NCBI GenBank assembly: GCA_012841145.1
Contig: DUVH01000011.1
Location: forward strand, 24,904 to 88,903
Length of the DNA: 64,000 nucleotides
Reading direction: 5' to 3'
DNA from: Clostridiaceae bacterium
GTDB lineage: Bacteria > Bacillota > Clostridia > Saccharofermentanales > DTU023
Shown: one piece after another, positions 5,388 to 10,890 of the stretch
Layout: each line of letters opens with the position of its first letter
Numbering within the stretch: the first letter of the stretch is position 1
The notes under the pieces: generated by a model
Seen by the model: only the letters and a program-made list of their open reading frames with translations
Databases searched by the model: none
Told to the model about the DNA's origin: nothing
Program-made: the position numbers and the translations under genes

Positions 5388-5512
5388 ACGCGATTGTTGC
5401 TGAAATATTCCATTTTTTACGAATTCGACCCCGCTTTTATGAAATGACGTCCGTAATCTATTATTGGTGGGCGCAAAACACCATCTCAAAATGAAAATAC
5501 AAGGAGAAAAAT

Positions 5513-6478
5513 ATGAAAAAGAACAAAATGAAAATGGTCACTCTGATAATATCGGCTCTGTTCCTTTTTGCCGCCGTTGTCGGCTGCGCGAAGGGTGCAG
5601 ATTTAAAGGATGGCACCGGCACCATTCTTCTTCGTGTCAATCCTGAGATTTCCGTCCATTATGATGCTGAAGGTCTCGTGACGAACGTTGTGCCCGAGAA
5701 CGATGACGCCAAATTGGTTGTCGAGAATGTCAGAGATTTGAAGGGCGAACAGGTACGCCCCGCGGTGAAAGAACTTGTCACAGCGATCAATGATGCAGGA
5801 TTCTTCGTCGACGAAATCGACGGAAGTTCGCGCAACATCACGATTGAAATCGCTAAAGGCTCTGTTTTCCCCGAAGAGGCATTCGATAAGCTTATCGCCA
5901 AAGATGTTAACTCTACGCTCAAGTCAATGAACGTGGAATCGAAAGTGATCGGAATCGACTTTTCTGATTACGATGATTCAGATTTTTCCGAACCGACAGG
6001 CGACTTCATCTCGGTTGAGCAAGCGAAAGAGATCGCTCTCGCTCACGCAAAAGTTGATGCCTCAAAAGCGAAATTCGATAAAGCGGAGCTCGAGGATGAT
6101 GACAATGTCGCGTACTACGACATTGAGTTCAAAGTCGACGGAGTCGAGTTTGAATATGAAATTGACGCTGTGAGCGGTCAAGTTCTGAAGTATGAACGTG
6201 ACGACAAGGACGTGAGCGACTACGACGATGACAATGATAATGACGCCGACGACAGCGATCACAAGTCACCGACCAAGCCGACTGAGGACGACAGCGACTT
6301 CGACGATGACAGCGATCACAAAGCTCCGACGAAGAAGACGACCAAACCGACTGAAGACGACAGCGACTTTGACGACGACAGCGATCACAAAGCTCCGACG
6401 AAGAAGACGACCAAACCGACACAGGATGACAGCGACTTTGACGATGACAACGACGACGACAGCGATTACGACGATTAA
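5513..6478 (+). CDS. lipoprotein with RsgI-N/PepSY-like domains and C-terminal acidic Asp/Ser/Lys repeats
   Basis: Lipobox FAAVVGCAKG; VNPEISVHYDAEGLVTNVVPENDDAK; PepSY-like ISVEQAKEIALAHAKV...YDIEFKVDGVEFEYEIDAVSGQVLKYE; repeats TEDDSDFDDDSDHKAPTKKTTKP. Confidence 0.7.
   Translation: MKKNKMKMVTLIISALFLFAAVVGCAKGADLKDGTGTILLRVNPEISVHYDAEGLVTNVVPENDDAKLVVENVRDLKGEQVRPAVKELVTAINDAGFFVDEIDGSSRNITIEIAKGSVFPEEAFDKLIAKDVNSTLKSMNVESKVIGIDFSDYDDSDFSEPTGDFISVEQAKEIALAHAKVDASKAKFDKAELEDDDNVAYYDIEFKVDGVEFEYEIDAVSGQVLKYERDDKDVSDYDDDNDNDADDSDHKSPTKPTEDDSDFDDDSDHKAPTKKTTKPTEDDSDFDDDSDHKAPTKKTTKPTQDDSDFDDDNDDDSDYDD
6281..6478 (+). repeat. 69-bp (23-codon) in-frame tandem repeat, two full units plus partial flanking units
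   Basis: 6281..6349 and 6350..6418 both encode TEDDSDFDDDSDHKAPTKKTTKP; a third partial copy starts at 6419. Confidence 0.9.
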
Positions 6479-6526
6479 TCGTTAATCGGCTGAACTGTAA
6501 TACGATTTCATAATAATTCTAATAGC

Positions 6527-6602
6527 TTGCACATCGGTTTTGCTCTTCCCCCCGGTCCCATCAATGATGGCGACAGATGCAAAGCCGATGTGCTATTTTT
6601 AT
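6527..6602 (+). terminator. putative terminator, long stem with internal hairpin
   Basis: gcacatcggttttgc ... gcaaagccgatgtgc (15 bp with one G-U) followed by tattttt; inner ccatcaatgatgg. Confidence 0.6.
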
Positions 6603-6663
6603 GGAGATCAACGCGACGCTAAACTCCGATGGATGACTGCTTTTAACTGAGGAAGGAAAACCC

Positions 6664-7338
6664 GTGAAACTTCGTCATGAACTGAAACACGAGATCAATT
6701 TTGCCGATCATCTCCTGCTCAAAAACAGGCTTCGAAAGATTCTTCCGCACGACCGGCACGTAGGGCCGGAAGGCGAATATCTCGTCAGAAGTCTCTATTT
6801 CGATGATCCGTTCGACAGGGCTCTCACGGAAAAAATCAGCGGCGTCAACTTGCGCGAGAAATTTCGTATCCGCTGCTACAATCAGGATTTTTCATGGATT
6901 CGACTGGAGAAGAAGAGTAAACGCCGCGGCTTAAGTCACAAACAGGCGGCACGTTTGACGGAAGATGAGGTTCGGTCGATACTCGACGGAGAATATACTT
7001 TTCTATTGAAAAGTGACATACCGTTACTTCAGGAGTTTTACTTCAACTTAACAAGTCGCTTGCTGCGTCCCTGTGTCATCGTGGAGTACTACCGCGAGCC
7101 ATTTGTTCACCCTGCGGGAAACACGCGCGTTACGCTCGATCGCGACATCAGAACAAGCGGAAGGAATATCGACTTCTTCGCGATCGATCCGCTGCAAATA
7201 CCGACAGACGTGGCTTTCGCCGTCCTTGAGGTGAAGTATGATCAGTTTCTTCCAGAGTTTATCGCGGACGCCATTCAAATCGGCCCCAGGCGGAGCGGCG
7301 CTTTTTCAAAATATGCGCACAGCCGCAAATACGACTAA
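6664..7338 (+). CDS. VTC-domain polyphosphate polymerase family protein
   Basis: RHELKHEINFADHLLLKNRL...YLVRSLYFDDP...REKFRIRCYN...IRLEKKSKRRG; VTC-like catalytic tunnel pattern. Confidence 0.85.
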   Translation: MKLRHELKHEINFADHLLLKNRLRKILPHDRHVGPEGEYLVRSLYFDDPFDRALTEKISGVNLREKFRIRCYNQDFSWIRLEKKSKRRGLSHKQAARLTEDEVRSILDGEYTFLLKSDIPLLQEFYFNLTSRLLRPCVIVEYYREPFVHPAGNTRVTLDRDIRTSGRNIDFFAIDPLQIPTDVAFAVLEVKYDQFLPEFIADAIQIGPRRSGAFSKYAHSRKYD

Positions 7339-7397
7339 ACAGGAAAACAGAACCTTTCAACGAGGTTAAATATTTACAGCGAAAAGAGGAAAGATTC

Positions 7398-8069
7398 ATG
7401 AGTTTCAGAGATATCTTCAAGTCCAGATTCCTTGAGAACGTGACGAGCATTTCCATCCTTGACATGGCGCTTGCCATGGTGCTCTCGTTCTTCGTCGGAC
7501 TGTTCATCTTTTGGATTTATAAATTGACGTATCGTGGTGTGATGTACTCGTCGAGCTTCGGTGTGACGCTCATCGGTCTCACAATGATCGCCACGCTCGT
7601 TATTCTGGCCGTTACAAGCAATGTCGTTCTATCGCTTGGAATGGTGGGTGCTCTGTCCATCGTCCGTTTCAGGTCGGCGATTAAAGAGCCGCTCGACATC
7701 GCGTTCTTATTCTGGAGTATCGCTGTCGGCATTGTCATCGCTGCCGGTCTGTTGCCGCTTGCCGTTTTCGGCAGTCTTTTCATAGGCATCATTCTCGTCA
7801 TTTTCGTTAGCTGGAAATCGCACGACAACCCTTTCATTTTGATCCTGCGCTGTCATTCGGAGGAGGCTGAAACGGCGGCAAAATCCGTCTTGGAGGCAAA
7901 TATCAAGAAACTCGTTCTTAAAAGCAAGAGCATCCGCGAAGGTGAGATCGAGCTCCATTACGAGGTTCGTCTCAAAGATGACGAGACTTCCTTTCTCAGC
8001 ACGATCGCGGACACTGAGGGAGTTCTCGACATTGTTCTCGTCAGCTACAAGGGTGATTACGTCGGATAA
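7398..8069 (+). CDS. DUF4956 family membrane protein
   Basis: TM segments with VVLSLGMVGALSIVRFRSAIKEPLDIAFLFWSIAVGI; position between VTC and CotH genes. Confidence 0.85.
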   Translation: MSFRDIFKSRFLENVTSISILDMALAMVLSFFVGLFIFWIYKLTYRGVMYSSSFGVTLIGLTMIATLVILAVTSNVVLSLGMVGALSIVRFRSAIKEPLDIAFLFWSIAVGIVIAAGLLPLAVFGSLFIGIILVIFVSWKSHDNPFILILRCHSEEAETAAKSVLEANIKKLVLKSKSIREGEIELHYEVRLKDDETSFLSTIADTEGVLDIVLVSYKGDYVG

Positions 8070-8113
8070 CGGCCTGTGGGCCCAAAATCTGACGGCGCGT
8101 TAGGGAGGCGCTC

Positions 8114-9538
8114 ATGCTCAAGCATCGGTACATTGACAAGATTTGTCTTGCGGCGGCCATACTTATGGTCGTCCTTATGATCGTGTTTATGAACGCCGGT
8201 TCGTTTGGGCTGAGGACGTATCATGGCTCGCCCGGCTATGTCGATCGCCTTTTTGATATGAGCTGCGTTCACTCGATCGACTTTACTTTAGACGAGTCGG
8301 ATTGGCAGAGTATTTTAGAAAACCCGCACGCAAAGGAATACGTCCCCGCCACGATCTCCATTGACGGCGATGAGATCGCCAATGTCGGTCTTCGCGTCAA
8401 GGGGAATAATTCGCTCAATCAGATTTACAAGTACGGTTCCAAGCGCTTCAGCCTTAAAGTTGAATTTGATCATTACGAAAAAGGACAGACGTATTTCGGA
8501 CTCGACAAGCTCTCGCTGAATACTTCTTTTCAAGACAATGCTTTCATGAAAGATACGATAACCTACGAGATGATGCGTGAGATGAAAGTCCCCGCACCGC
8601 TTACAAGTCACGCATTCATTCGCGTCAATGGTAGAGATTGGGGACTGTTCGTCGCTATTGAAGAAATCGAGGATGCCTTCGTTCGCAGAAACTACGGCAT
8701 GAATCGCGGAGAGCTCTACAAACCGAAGTATCGCCGGCTGAGCGATCAGAACGACGATATCGCCCTCATTTACACGGGTGACGAATTCTGGCGTTACGAA
8801 AACATTTTCCGCCATTCCGTCTTTAAAGTTAATGACGCCGATAAGGCGAGATTGATCGAAGCGCTCAAAATCCTTGCAGAAGGGAAAGACTTGGAGTCAG
8901 CGCTCGATATCGAGGCATTGCTCAGGTTTTTTACCGTCCAGACATTCGTTGTCAATCTCGACAGCTACCTTGGCAAAACCGGGCACAACTATTTTCTTTA
9001 CGAAAAAGACGGCAAGATTTCGATGCTTCCATGGGATTACAATCTCGCTTTCGCAACGTACGCGCTCGGCATGACCGATCCCATCAATGATTCGACGCTT
9101 TTTGTAAACTATCCGATCGATACGCCGGCTCCGATGGAGGTGATGATCCGCCGGCCGCTCTTTGTGCAGCTCATGTTCAACAGCGAATACGTCGAAAGAT
9201 ATCACGATCTCTACGACGATTTCCTGATAAAGTACATGGAAAGCGGTCGTTTCGAGGAGAAGGTAGATTCTATCCGCGACATGATCTCGCCTTATGTCAA
9301 GCGAGATCCCACAAAGTTCTGCTCGCACGACGACTTCCTTCTCGCCGTCGATACGCTCAAGGATTTTTGCCTCCTGCGCGCACAAAGTGTGCGCGGCCAA
9401 CTTGACGGCACGATTCCGTCAACGTTCAAAGGACAGGCAAATAACCCTGAAACCTTAATCGACGCTTCTTCCGTTTGGGTTCCGGATCTCGGTGATTTCG
9501 AAGATATGCGAAATCTCGTTGACGGTCTTCTCCCTTAG
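8114..9538 (+). CDS. CotH kinase family protein with N-terminal TM
   Basis: VGLRVKGNNSLNQIYKYGSKRFSLKVEFDHY...LNTSFQDNAFMKDTITYEMMREM...NYFLYEKDGKISMLPWDYNLAFA. Confidence 0.88.
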   Translation: MLKHRYIDKICLAAAILMVVLMIVFMNAGSFGLRTYHGSPGYVDRLFDMSCVHSIDFTLDESDWQSILENPHAKEYVPATISIDGDEIANVGLRVKGNNSLNQIYKYGSKRFSLKVEFDHYEKGQTYFGLDKLSLNTSFQDNAFMKDTITYEMMREMKVPAPLTSHAFIRVNGRDWGLFVAIEEIEDAFVRRNYGMNRGELYKPKYRRLSDQNDDIALIYTGDEFWRYENIFRHSVFKVNDADKARLIEALKILAEGKDLESALDIEALLRFFTVQTFVVNLDSYLGKTGHNYFLYEKDGKISMLPWDYNLAFATYALGMTDPINDSTLFVNYPIDTPAPMEVMIRRPLFVQLMFNSEYVERYHDLYDDFLIKYMESGRFEEKVDSIRDMISPYVKRDPTKFCSHDDFLLAVDTLKDFCLLRAQSVRGQLDGTIPSTFKGQANNPETLIDASSVWVPDLGDFEDMRNLVDGLLP

Positions 9539-9702: not shown

Positions 9703-10890
9703 ATGAAAAAATTTTTTGCAATTTTGCTCGTCGCTCTGATGGTATTTACTGTCGTCGCATGCGACAAAAAACCGGTCGAACCCGGCACGTCAGGCAGTGA
9801 AACAGCAGATCCCGGCACCGAACCCGGCGGCGATCCCGGCGGTGATCCCGGCGGAGAACCCGATCCGGAAAAGAAGGTCTACAGCGTTGTTCATTTGGTC
9901 AACGGGAACCTCGGAGATAAATCGTTCTTCGACTCTGCCAATACGGGTCTTACCCAATTGGAGGCGGACGGACGCATTACGCTGAAGACGATTGAGATGG
10001 GCGGAACGGATGCCGACCAGCCGAAATGGCAGGAGACCCTGAATGAGGTCGCCGAGAGCCAGCTGTACGATCTCGTTGTTTGCGGCACGTACCAGATGCC
10101 CGACTACCTGAAAGAGACGGCGACGGCTTACCCCGATCAGAAGTTCCTCATCTACGACGACACGACGTACGTCGGCGAAAACGAGAACGTTGTCAATGTC
10201 AGCTACAGGCAGAACGACATGGGCTACCTGATCGGTGTCTACGCGGCGGCTATGACAACGAAAACGGACATTGACAAAATCAACCCCGAGAAAGTCGTCG
10301 GATTTATCGGCGGCGTCGACAGCCCCGTCATCAACGACTTCCTGTACGGATTCCTGACGGGCGTCCAGGCGACAGATCCTGAAGTTAAGGTAGACACGCG
10401 CTACGTCAACAGCTACGTTGATACGGCGACGGCGAAAGAGATGGGTCTCGCGATGATCAACGATAACAACGTCGACATCATCTGGGGCGTTGCGGGCCTG
10501 TCAGGCAACGGCGGAGCCGAGGCGGCGCTCGAGTCGGGTAAAGCCTGGTTCATCGGCGTCGACTCCGATCAGGAGCTCACACTTTCCGCCGAGCTTGCGG
10601 CGATCACGCTGACATCGGGACTCAAGAACATCGGACAATCACTCATCTGGGTCTTTGATGAGTGGGATGCCGGCCGCACCTATTGGGGTACGGAAGTCAA
10701 CCTCGGACTCGTCGAGGGCGGTGTAGGTTTCGTCTCGGATAAGAACTTCAAGAACATTGCACCACAAGATGTCCAAGATCTTGTTCTCGAAGCTGAACAG
10801 GACGTTCGCGACAAAAAAGTTGAAGTTCCTTCGGCTATCGGCGACGACACGAACGGCGTCATCGTCATGCGTGATGAAATGCAGCCGTAA
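9703..10890 (+). CDS. BMP-family ABC transporter substrate-binding lipoprotein (nucleoside type)
   Basis: Lipobox MVFTVVACDKK; VHLVNGNLGDKSFFDSANTGL...; followed by ATPase and two permeases. Confidence 0.88.
   Translation: MKKFFAILLVALMVFTVVACDKKPVEPGTSGSETADPGTEPGGDPGGDPGGEPDPEKKVYSVVHLVNGNLGDKSFFDSANTGLTQLEADGRITLKTIEMGGTDADQPKWQETLNEVAESQLYDLVVCGTYQMPDYLKETATAYPDQKFLIYDDTTYVGENENVVNVSYRQNDMGYLIGVYAAAMTTKTDIDKINPEKVVGFIGGVDSPVINDFLYGFLTGVQATDPEVKVDTRYVNSYVDTATAKEMGLAMINDNNVDIIWGVAGLSGNGGAEAALESGKAWFIGVDSDQELTLSAELAAITLTSGLKNIGQSLIWVFDEWDAGRTYWGTEVNLGLVEGGVGFVSDKNFKNIAPQDVQDLVLEAEQDVRDKKVEVPSAIGDDTNGVIVMRDEMQP

Follow-up and report, generated by a model that had tools for sequence, protein, structure and literature searches.

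The stretch of DNA analysed here (the window; 64,000 nucleotides of contig DUVH01000011.1 from a Clostridiaceae bacterium, assembly GCA_012841145.1) contains four genes that encode a lipoprotein with an acidic tail, a VTC-family polyphosphate polymerase, a DUF4956 membrane protein and a CotH-family kinase (Table 1). All four genes (5513-9538) are intact and lie on the + strand, the Pfam scores of VTC, DUF4956 and CotH are above the curated cut-offs, and the genes are present as the initial annotation, made from the sequence alone, had placed them. Our computational analysis reveals that these genes form a conserved unit, that the lipoprotein gene is preceded by a SigI-type promoter and that the acidic tail carries a repeated motif whose occurrence is tied to one class of CotH, here called class A.

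Table 1. Features of the lipoprotein-VTC-DUF4956-CotH locus (positions in the window; aa, amino acids).
Feature	Position	Strand	Details
SigI-type promoter	5428-5460	+	ACCCCGCTTTTATGAAATGACGTCCGTAATCTA (CCCC-N19-CGTA); 5' of the lipoprotein gene
Lipoprotein, proposed kinase substrate	5513-6478	+	321 aa; signal peptide and lipobox, SEAL/RsgI_M, PepSY, acidic [ST]x[YF] tail
SEAL/RsgI_M domain (aa 39-148)	5627-5956	+	PF23750, 43.2 bits; Asn43-Pro44 at 5639-5644 is the expected autocleavage site
PepSY domain (aa 166-228)	6008-6196	+	PF03413, 46 bits; 4exr and 9vy3 matched by profile
Acidic tail	6197-6475	+	SDY/SDF/SDH sites at aa 235, 248, 261, 267, 284, 290, 307, 317
Intrinsic terminator-like hairpin	6529-6593	+	-35.8 kcal/mol, z -4.8; followed by the U-rich run UAUUUUUAU; between the lipoprotein gene and VTC
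VTC-family polyphosphate polymerase	6664-7338	+	224 aa; GTG start, no membrane segment; PF09359, 124.7 bits
DUF4956 membrane protein	7398-8069	+	223 aa; several membrane helices and a C-terminal ACT-like domain; PF16316, 45.1 bits
CotH-family kinase, class A	8114-9538	+	474 aa; N-terminal membrane anchor; PF08757, 191.3 bits

The initial annotation had recognized a lipoprotein with acidic repeats, which stands, and had overlooked its RsgI_M domain, its PepSY domain and the SigI-type promoter. In the AlphaFold model, computed with 21 relatives (predicted local distance difference test, pLDDT, 84.7), the first domain has a predicted fold that superposes on the SEAL domain of Bacillus subtilis RsgI (8t9n; Foldseek E 2.4e-6). 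The Asn and Pro of the SEAL site (N18 and P19 in the aligned piece) are invariant across the 21 relatives, and we take this pair to be the position of self-cleavage. Autocleavage of RsgI in general has been described elsewhere (PMC12203970). The window lipoprotein is RsgI-like, yet it is not an anti-sigma factor, because it has a lipobox, a Pfam search found no RsgI_N domain in it and the sole RsgI_N of the genome is encoded on another contig (C18). Its tail contains a tandem repeat (69-nt unit, 2.7 copies, 6270-6453) coding DDSDFDDDSDHKAPTKKTTKP, ends in DSDYDD and often has Phe or His in the Tyr position (SDF, SDH) with Ser kept; two further sites of the SDY/SDF/SDH type lie N-terminal of the PepSY domain (amino acids 151 and 156). 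The same genome encodes a paralogous lipoprotein (L061:8131-9309; G000:C25:16129-17309, - strand) that is 85% identical over the N-terminal part and has its own SigI-type promoter, with one mismatch; the cassette does not adjoin it. Elsewhere in the order, some RsgI_M proteins (L176, L178, L181, L182) bear long PepSY-containing tails in place of the acidic one and others (L226, L227, L230, L255) bear tails of DnaJ-like CxxCxGxG repeats. This variety suggests that many different sensor tails have been mounted on a single SEAL scaffold.

The VTC protein could be connected to its eukaryotic relatives by a profile search, which retrieved yeast Vtc4 (3g3q, E 2e-14); the single sequence searched against the PDB gave chance matches only. 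Residues K66, R68, R70, K84, K86, R144, R155, E189, K191, S215 and K216 are invariant among 19 relatives and correspond to those that line the catalytic tunnel in Vtc4. The VTC domain takes up the whole 224 amino acids in the Pfam search, so that the protein has no membrane domain of its own for translocation, and the membrane protein is encoded by a separate gene. The model of this DUF4956 protein (pLDDT 78.7) has its best PDB match in 2lqj (E 2.6e-3) for the C-terminal ACT-like domain alone, which is closest to the C-terminal domain of MgtC. We also considered DUF4956 as a channel; the structure search gave no significant match over the whole length, and the fold thus lends no support to that idea.

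The PF08757 match of the CotH protein spans amino acids 93-425, with a score that compares with a cut-off of 23.8 bits. It aligns with the CotH structures of the Bacillus cereus group (5jd9/5jda, E 4.7e-14) with the Asp motifs in register, and the motifs NLD, HNY and PWDYN are invariant among 12 relatives. Loss of catalytic residues in VTC or CotH had been named in the initial annotation as a reason to abandon its hypothesis; judging from these alignments, the residues expected to be catalytic appear intact in both enzymes. Class A CotH proteins begin with a short positively charged stretch followed by one membrane segment, and by the positive-inside rule the kinase domain is expected to lie outside the membrane, like the lipoprotein and the RsgI tails. 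The immediate neighbours of the cassette are an SH3-domain protein upstream and a PnrA-like substrate-binding lipoprotein downstream; the latter contains a 12-nt tandem repeat (4.6 copies, 9808-9862) that codes for a Gly-Gly-Asp-Pro linker.

We then asked how widely this arrangement is conserved. Lipoprotein homologues were found directly 5' of VTC-DUF4956-CotH in 14 genomes among the 59 relatives looked at. Further loci were picked by CotH sequence and not by the lipoprotein, to guard against selection bias: a search of 84,980 named genomes with the CotH alignment yielded 302 relatives, 80 of which were kept, from Lachnospiraceae, Oscillospiraceae, Erysipelotrichia and Tissierellia, among others. 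In all loci from named genomes whose contig extends 1 kb or more upstream of VTC, an RsgI_M lipoprotein is present there (64/64; a 65th locus, L097, stands outside this count, its contig beginning at DUF4956), and 65 of 66 such lipoproteins have a lipobox. That the lipoprotein belongs with the cassette, the point on which the initial annotation had staked its hypothesis beforehand, is therefore borne out. For 57 loci the contig reaches 2.7 kb or more beyond the lipoprotein on its upstream side; SigI was found in 50 of these and a second RsgI_M protein, RsgI itself, in 51. The commonest gene order is SigI, RsgI, lipoprotein, VTC, DUF4956 and CotH; SigI-RsgI is divergent in Mediterraneibacter and similar genomes, and in the window genome it lies on contig C18. 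Culturable commensals that possess the complete unit include Traorella massiliensis and Sellimonas caecigallum (loci L116 and L138). At three loci (L148, L159, L160) the lipoprotein abuts CotH without VTC. These are not truly VTC-free, as VTC-DUF4956 was found elsewhere in the genome, and the presence of the pair even when it is not beside CotH argues that CotH needs VTC-DUF4956.

In the CotH tree, class A is separated from class B with full support (Shimodaira-Hasegawa-like approximate likelihood ratio test, SH-aLRT, 100). We also observed a second class of cassettes (L066, L069, L070, L071, L072, L087, L089) in which VTC-DUF4956-CotH occurs without the SEAL lipoprotein. Most of those read have a response regulator and a histidine kinase upstream, and their CotH is longer (538-821 amino acids), often with a C-terminal membrane segment. 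At one further locus, the gap between lipoprotein and VTC (L077:8550-8760) contains what may be the broken start of a VTC gene and, after it, an acidic stretch resembling DDSDYND.

The lipoprotein genes are preceded by the element ACCCCGnTTT-N14-CGTAnnCTA, which agrees with the elements ACCCCC and CGWA of the SigI consensus in the literature (PMC4711584). Of 77 lipoprotein genes, 62 have it at the exact spacing CCCC-N19-CGWA, where 0.3 would be expected, and at N19 or N20 it precedes 67 of the 105 SigI-like genes; VTC and CotH showed no such promoter. The element at 5428-5460 is the only match in the window with at most two mismatches (0.01 expected in 64 kb). Across the 1.57-Mb genome, at most one mismatch being allowed, there are three matches, located before sigI-rsgI, before the lipoprotein gene and before its paralogue, and the reversed control gave 0. 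The terminator suspected in the initial annotation is real, as judged from the stability of its hairpin (Table 1), and two close relatives (L074 and L076) have long hairpins in the same gap. The doubt about co-regulation that had been attached to it does not hang on the terminator alone; it has now to be set beside the SigI-type promoter of the lipoprotein gene and the inclusion in the unit of SigI and RsgI, which the initial annotation had not noticed.

The tails of these lipoproteins are not alignable, and we characterized them by motif statistics on 126 dereplicated tails (17,717 amino acids). Among all pairs of residues one to six positions apart, T..Y and S..Y at +2 stand out as the two most enriched, which defines the motif [Ser/Thr]-x-[Tyr/Phe]; it is also present in the RsgI tails, and three or more sites occur in 131 of 138 tails. 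Ser or Thr stands at -2 of about 90% of the tail tyrosines (1,522 of about 1,690), and Tyr at +2 of fewer than half of the tail Ser/Thr. Such an asymmetry, nearly all Tyr being in the motif and many Ser/Thr outside it, could indicate that CotH phosphorylates the Tyr and that Ser/Thr is the specificity residue. However, the Tyr of the window tail is often swapped for Phe or His while Ser is kept, and the CotH that has been characterized phosphorylates Ser/Thr (PMC7821199), which makes a Tyr acceptor quite improbable in our opinion.

The composition of the tails bears on another explanation. The initial annotation had likened the window tail to the polyacidic, Ser- and Lys-rich (PASK) clusters that associate with polyphosphate in eukaryotes. 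The window tail is indeed acidic and rich in Ser and Lys, but Lys is not conserved in the tail family (median 0.7 per 100 amino acids; at most two Lys in 99 of 138 tails), and we have dropped the analogy. Polyphosphate made by VTC is very unlikely to be attached or bound to the tail as at PASK clusters and displayed on the surface by the lipoprotein. The nearly constant presence of a VTC with intact tunnel residues and the Lys in the window tail would fit such a display; the scarcity of Lys and the strong acidity of the tails, which makes ionic binding of polyphosphate unlikely, do not, and CotH would be left without a role.

The motif is closely associated with class A CotH. For this comparison, 148 genomes of the order were searched for RsgI_M and CotH and the tails of 102 RsgI_M proteins were read. 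The median number of sites per 100 amino acids is 5.7 in class A cassette genomes, 0.0 in genomes with other CotH and 0.4 in those with no CotH. In class A cassette genomes, 31 of the 32 RsgI_M proteins pass a threshold of 2 sites per 100 amino acids, versus 1 of the 70 others, and, per genome, a threshold of 3 sites by 15/15 with class A CotH versus 0/44 other RsgI_M genomes; class A was assigned partly from synteny, and the key controls are four genomes (G011, G006, G052, G055) without any CotH. One genome (G100) was examined as an exception, since it has the motif and seemed to lack CotH. Its contig breaks off within DUF4956, downstream of VTC; a break in the assembly most likely explains the absence, and G100 was counted as a cassette genome. 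Within the window genome, the DNA pattern for D[ST]D[YF]D has 17 matches, and 12 of them fall in RsgI, the lipoprotein or its paralogue. These data make it very probable, as far as sequence comparison can tell, that the tail is a CotH substrate, as the initial annotation had proposed.

General acidity of the tail does not suffice as an explanation, since motif-free acidic SEAL tails exist in genomes without class A CotH. The same observation speaks against the view that the tails bind calcium or other cations in the manner of thrombospondin type 3 repeats, CotH, VTC and DUF4956 being mere operon neighbours that act on, for instance, exopolysaccharide. Many Lachnospiraceae tails read DTDYGPNNDGVTDYND, which is near to Asp-rich calcium-binding repeats, and in streptococci and clostridia the cassette adjoins the pel genes for exopolysaccharide (PMC7112168). 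Yet the conserved element is [ST]x[YF] and not DxDxDG, the tails of the window and its near relatives lack such Gly, and SEAL tails without class A CotH lose the motif and keep their acidity. We therefore regard cation binding by unmodified tails as unlikely.

A natural case of kinase loss may be seen in a genome of the window's genus (G011): it has no CotH, and its lipoprotein and RsgI have their sister sequences in two genomes, G002 and G005. Its tails are poly-Asp, with a charge per 100 amino acids of -67 for the lipoprotein and -54 for RsgI. The unmodified tails of G002/G005 have -43/-45 (lipoprotein) and -35/-33 (RsgI), and with one phosphate per site they are predicted to reach -66/-69 and -55/-53, respectively. 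It is suggestive that the poly-Asp tails are the expected outcome if Asp took the place of phosphorylated residues upon loss of the kinase.

We consider it probable that the unit is a SigI-controlled extracytoplasmic phosphorylation module in which class A CotH modifies Ser/Thr of the tails of SEAL proteins. The alternative sigma factor SigI would transcribe its own gene together with rsgI, the window lipoprotein gene and the second lipoprotein gene elsewhere in the genome, and the acidic tails of the three SEAL proteins, unstructured and carrying repeated [Ser/Thr]-x-[Tyr/Phe] sites, would lie outside the membrane. Phosphorylation of the motif Ser/Thr by the outward-facing, membrane-anchored CotH would render these tails strongly polyanionic; they could then bind divalent cations or alter the pull of the tail on the SEAL domain, either of which might act back on the cleavage of RsgI and the activity of SigI. 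We infer phosphorylation, the identity of the modified residue and the effect on SigI from the computational results described above.

Several points weigh against this interpretation. The RsgI_M tree offers only five independent contrasts, all in the same direction, for which p 0.0625 is the floor attainable with five pairs, and shared ancestry may still account for the pattern. The charge match comes from one genome and two proteins. It may be Tyr that accepts the phosphate, or the motif might be the target of a different CotH-linked modification. VTC has no preceding SigI-type promoter, and the terminator of the window parts the substrate gene from the enzyme genes. Finally, CotH used ATP in vitro, and the use of polyphosphate is our own inference.

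VTC would make polyphosphate in the cytoplasm and DUF4956 would couple it to the membrane, so that the two jointly feed the outside reaction, where ATP is scarce; that they supply polyphosphate is probable. The most speculative part of the proposal is that this polyphosphate is the phosphoryl donor. Because an extracytoplasmic kinase lacks ATP, we tentatively suggest, as a possibility that we ourselves hold to be rather doubtful, that VTC polyphosphate exported with the help of DUF4956 serves as donor for CotH. Surface phosphorylation would then be ATP-independent and under SigI control, and with RsgI among the substrates the kinase would feed back on the sigma factor. The source of ATP for CotH in the spore has been called unanswered in the literature (PMC7821199).

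The unit shares several features with known systems. SigI-RsgI with SEAL autoproteolysis, described in Clostridium thermocellum and B. subtilis (PMC12203970), likewise comprises a SigI-type promoter, the N-terminal anti-sigma domain of RsgI, the Asn-Pro of SEAL and an extracytoplasmic C-terminal extension. Here, the extension is the [ST]x[YF] tail, and a SEAL lipoprotein without anti-sigma domain and CotH-VTC-DUF4956 are added. The spore-coat kinase CotH of B. subtilis, encoded next to its substrates CotB and CotG, polyphosphorylates the Ser-rich tail of CotB, and its activity is abolished by D228Q (PMC7821199). Family, repetitive Ser-containing tail and gene neighbourhood are thus common to both; in contrast, the present tails are acidic instead of Lys/Arg-rich and the kinase is membrane-anchored, expected outside and linked to SigI instead of the spore coat (PMC7821199). 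The eukaryotic VTC complex (Vtc4, 3g3q) has the same family of catalytic domain and the same tunnel residues, whereas here the VTC protein has no membrane domain and the separate DUF4956 would be its membrane partner. Fam20C, a kinase of the secretory pathway, phosphorylates acidic, Ser-rich secreted proteins at the motif S-x-E, unlike the motif described here, and this likeness is a lead only.

The three enzyme families have already been noted side by side as accessory genes of Gram-positive pel loci (cotH, poly-P polymerase, DUF4956 and DUF4832; PMC7112168). No pel genes are among the immediate neighbours here, the rest of the genome not having been searched for them, and the SEAL lipoprotein and SigI are not described there (PMC7112168). 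The gene table of Clostridium perfringens NELoc-2 lists, in a common order, SigI, a 348-amino-acid cell-wall protein (in the place of RsgI, by position alone), VTC, a 226-amino-acid membrane protein and, later, CotH, the link between them being unrecognised (PMC2879425). A literature search limited to open-licence papers did not find one joining SigI/RsgI, the SEAL lipoprotein and CotH; RsgI with CotH gave cellulosome papers and unrelated matches. What appears to be new is the joining of SigI-RsgI signalling to a probable CotH kinase-substrate pair.

Our analysis proposes what the VTC-DUF4956-CotH set does, what regulates it and by which motif its substrates are marked; the set recurs in Clostridia and Erysipelotrichia, including gut commensals. 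A gene set in which a sigma factor of the stress type seems to turn on a tailed surface protein, encoded beside a surface kinase and a polyphosphate polymerase, is carried by many gut and sludge bacteria and points to an undescribed extracellular protein phosphorylation where ATP is little or absent. It would also extend SigI-RsgI signalling to a modifiable tail. The question of the phosphate source for an extracellular CotH becomes directly testable and, if the donor idea is true, this would be a new kind of system.

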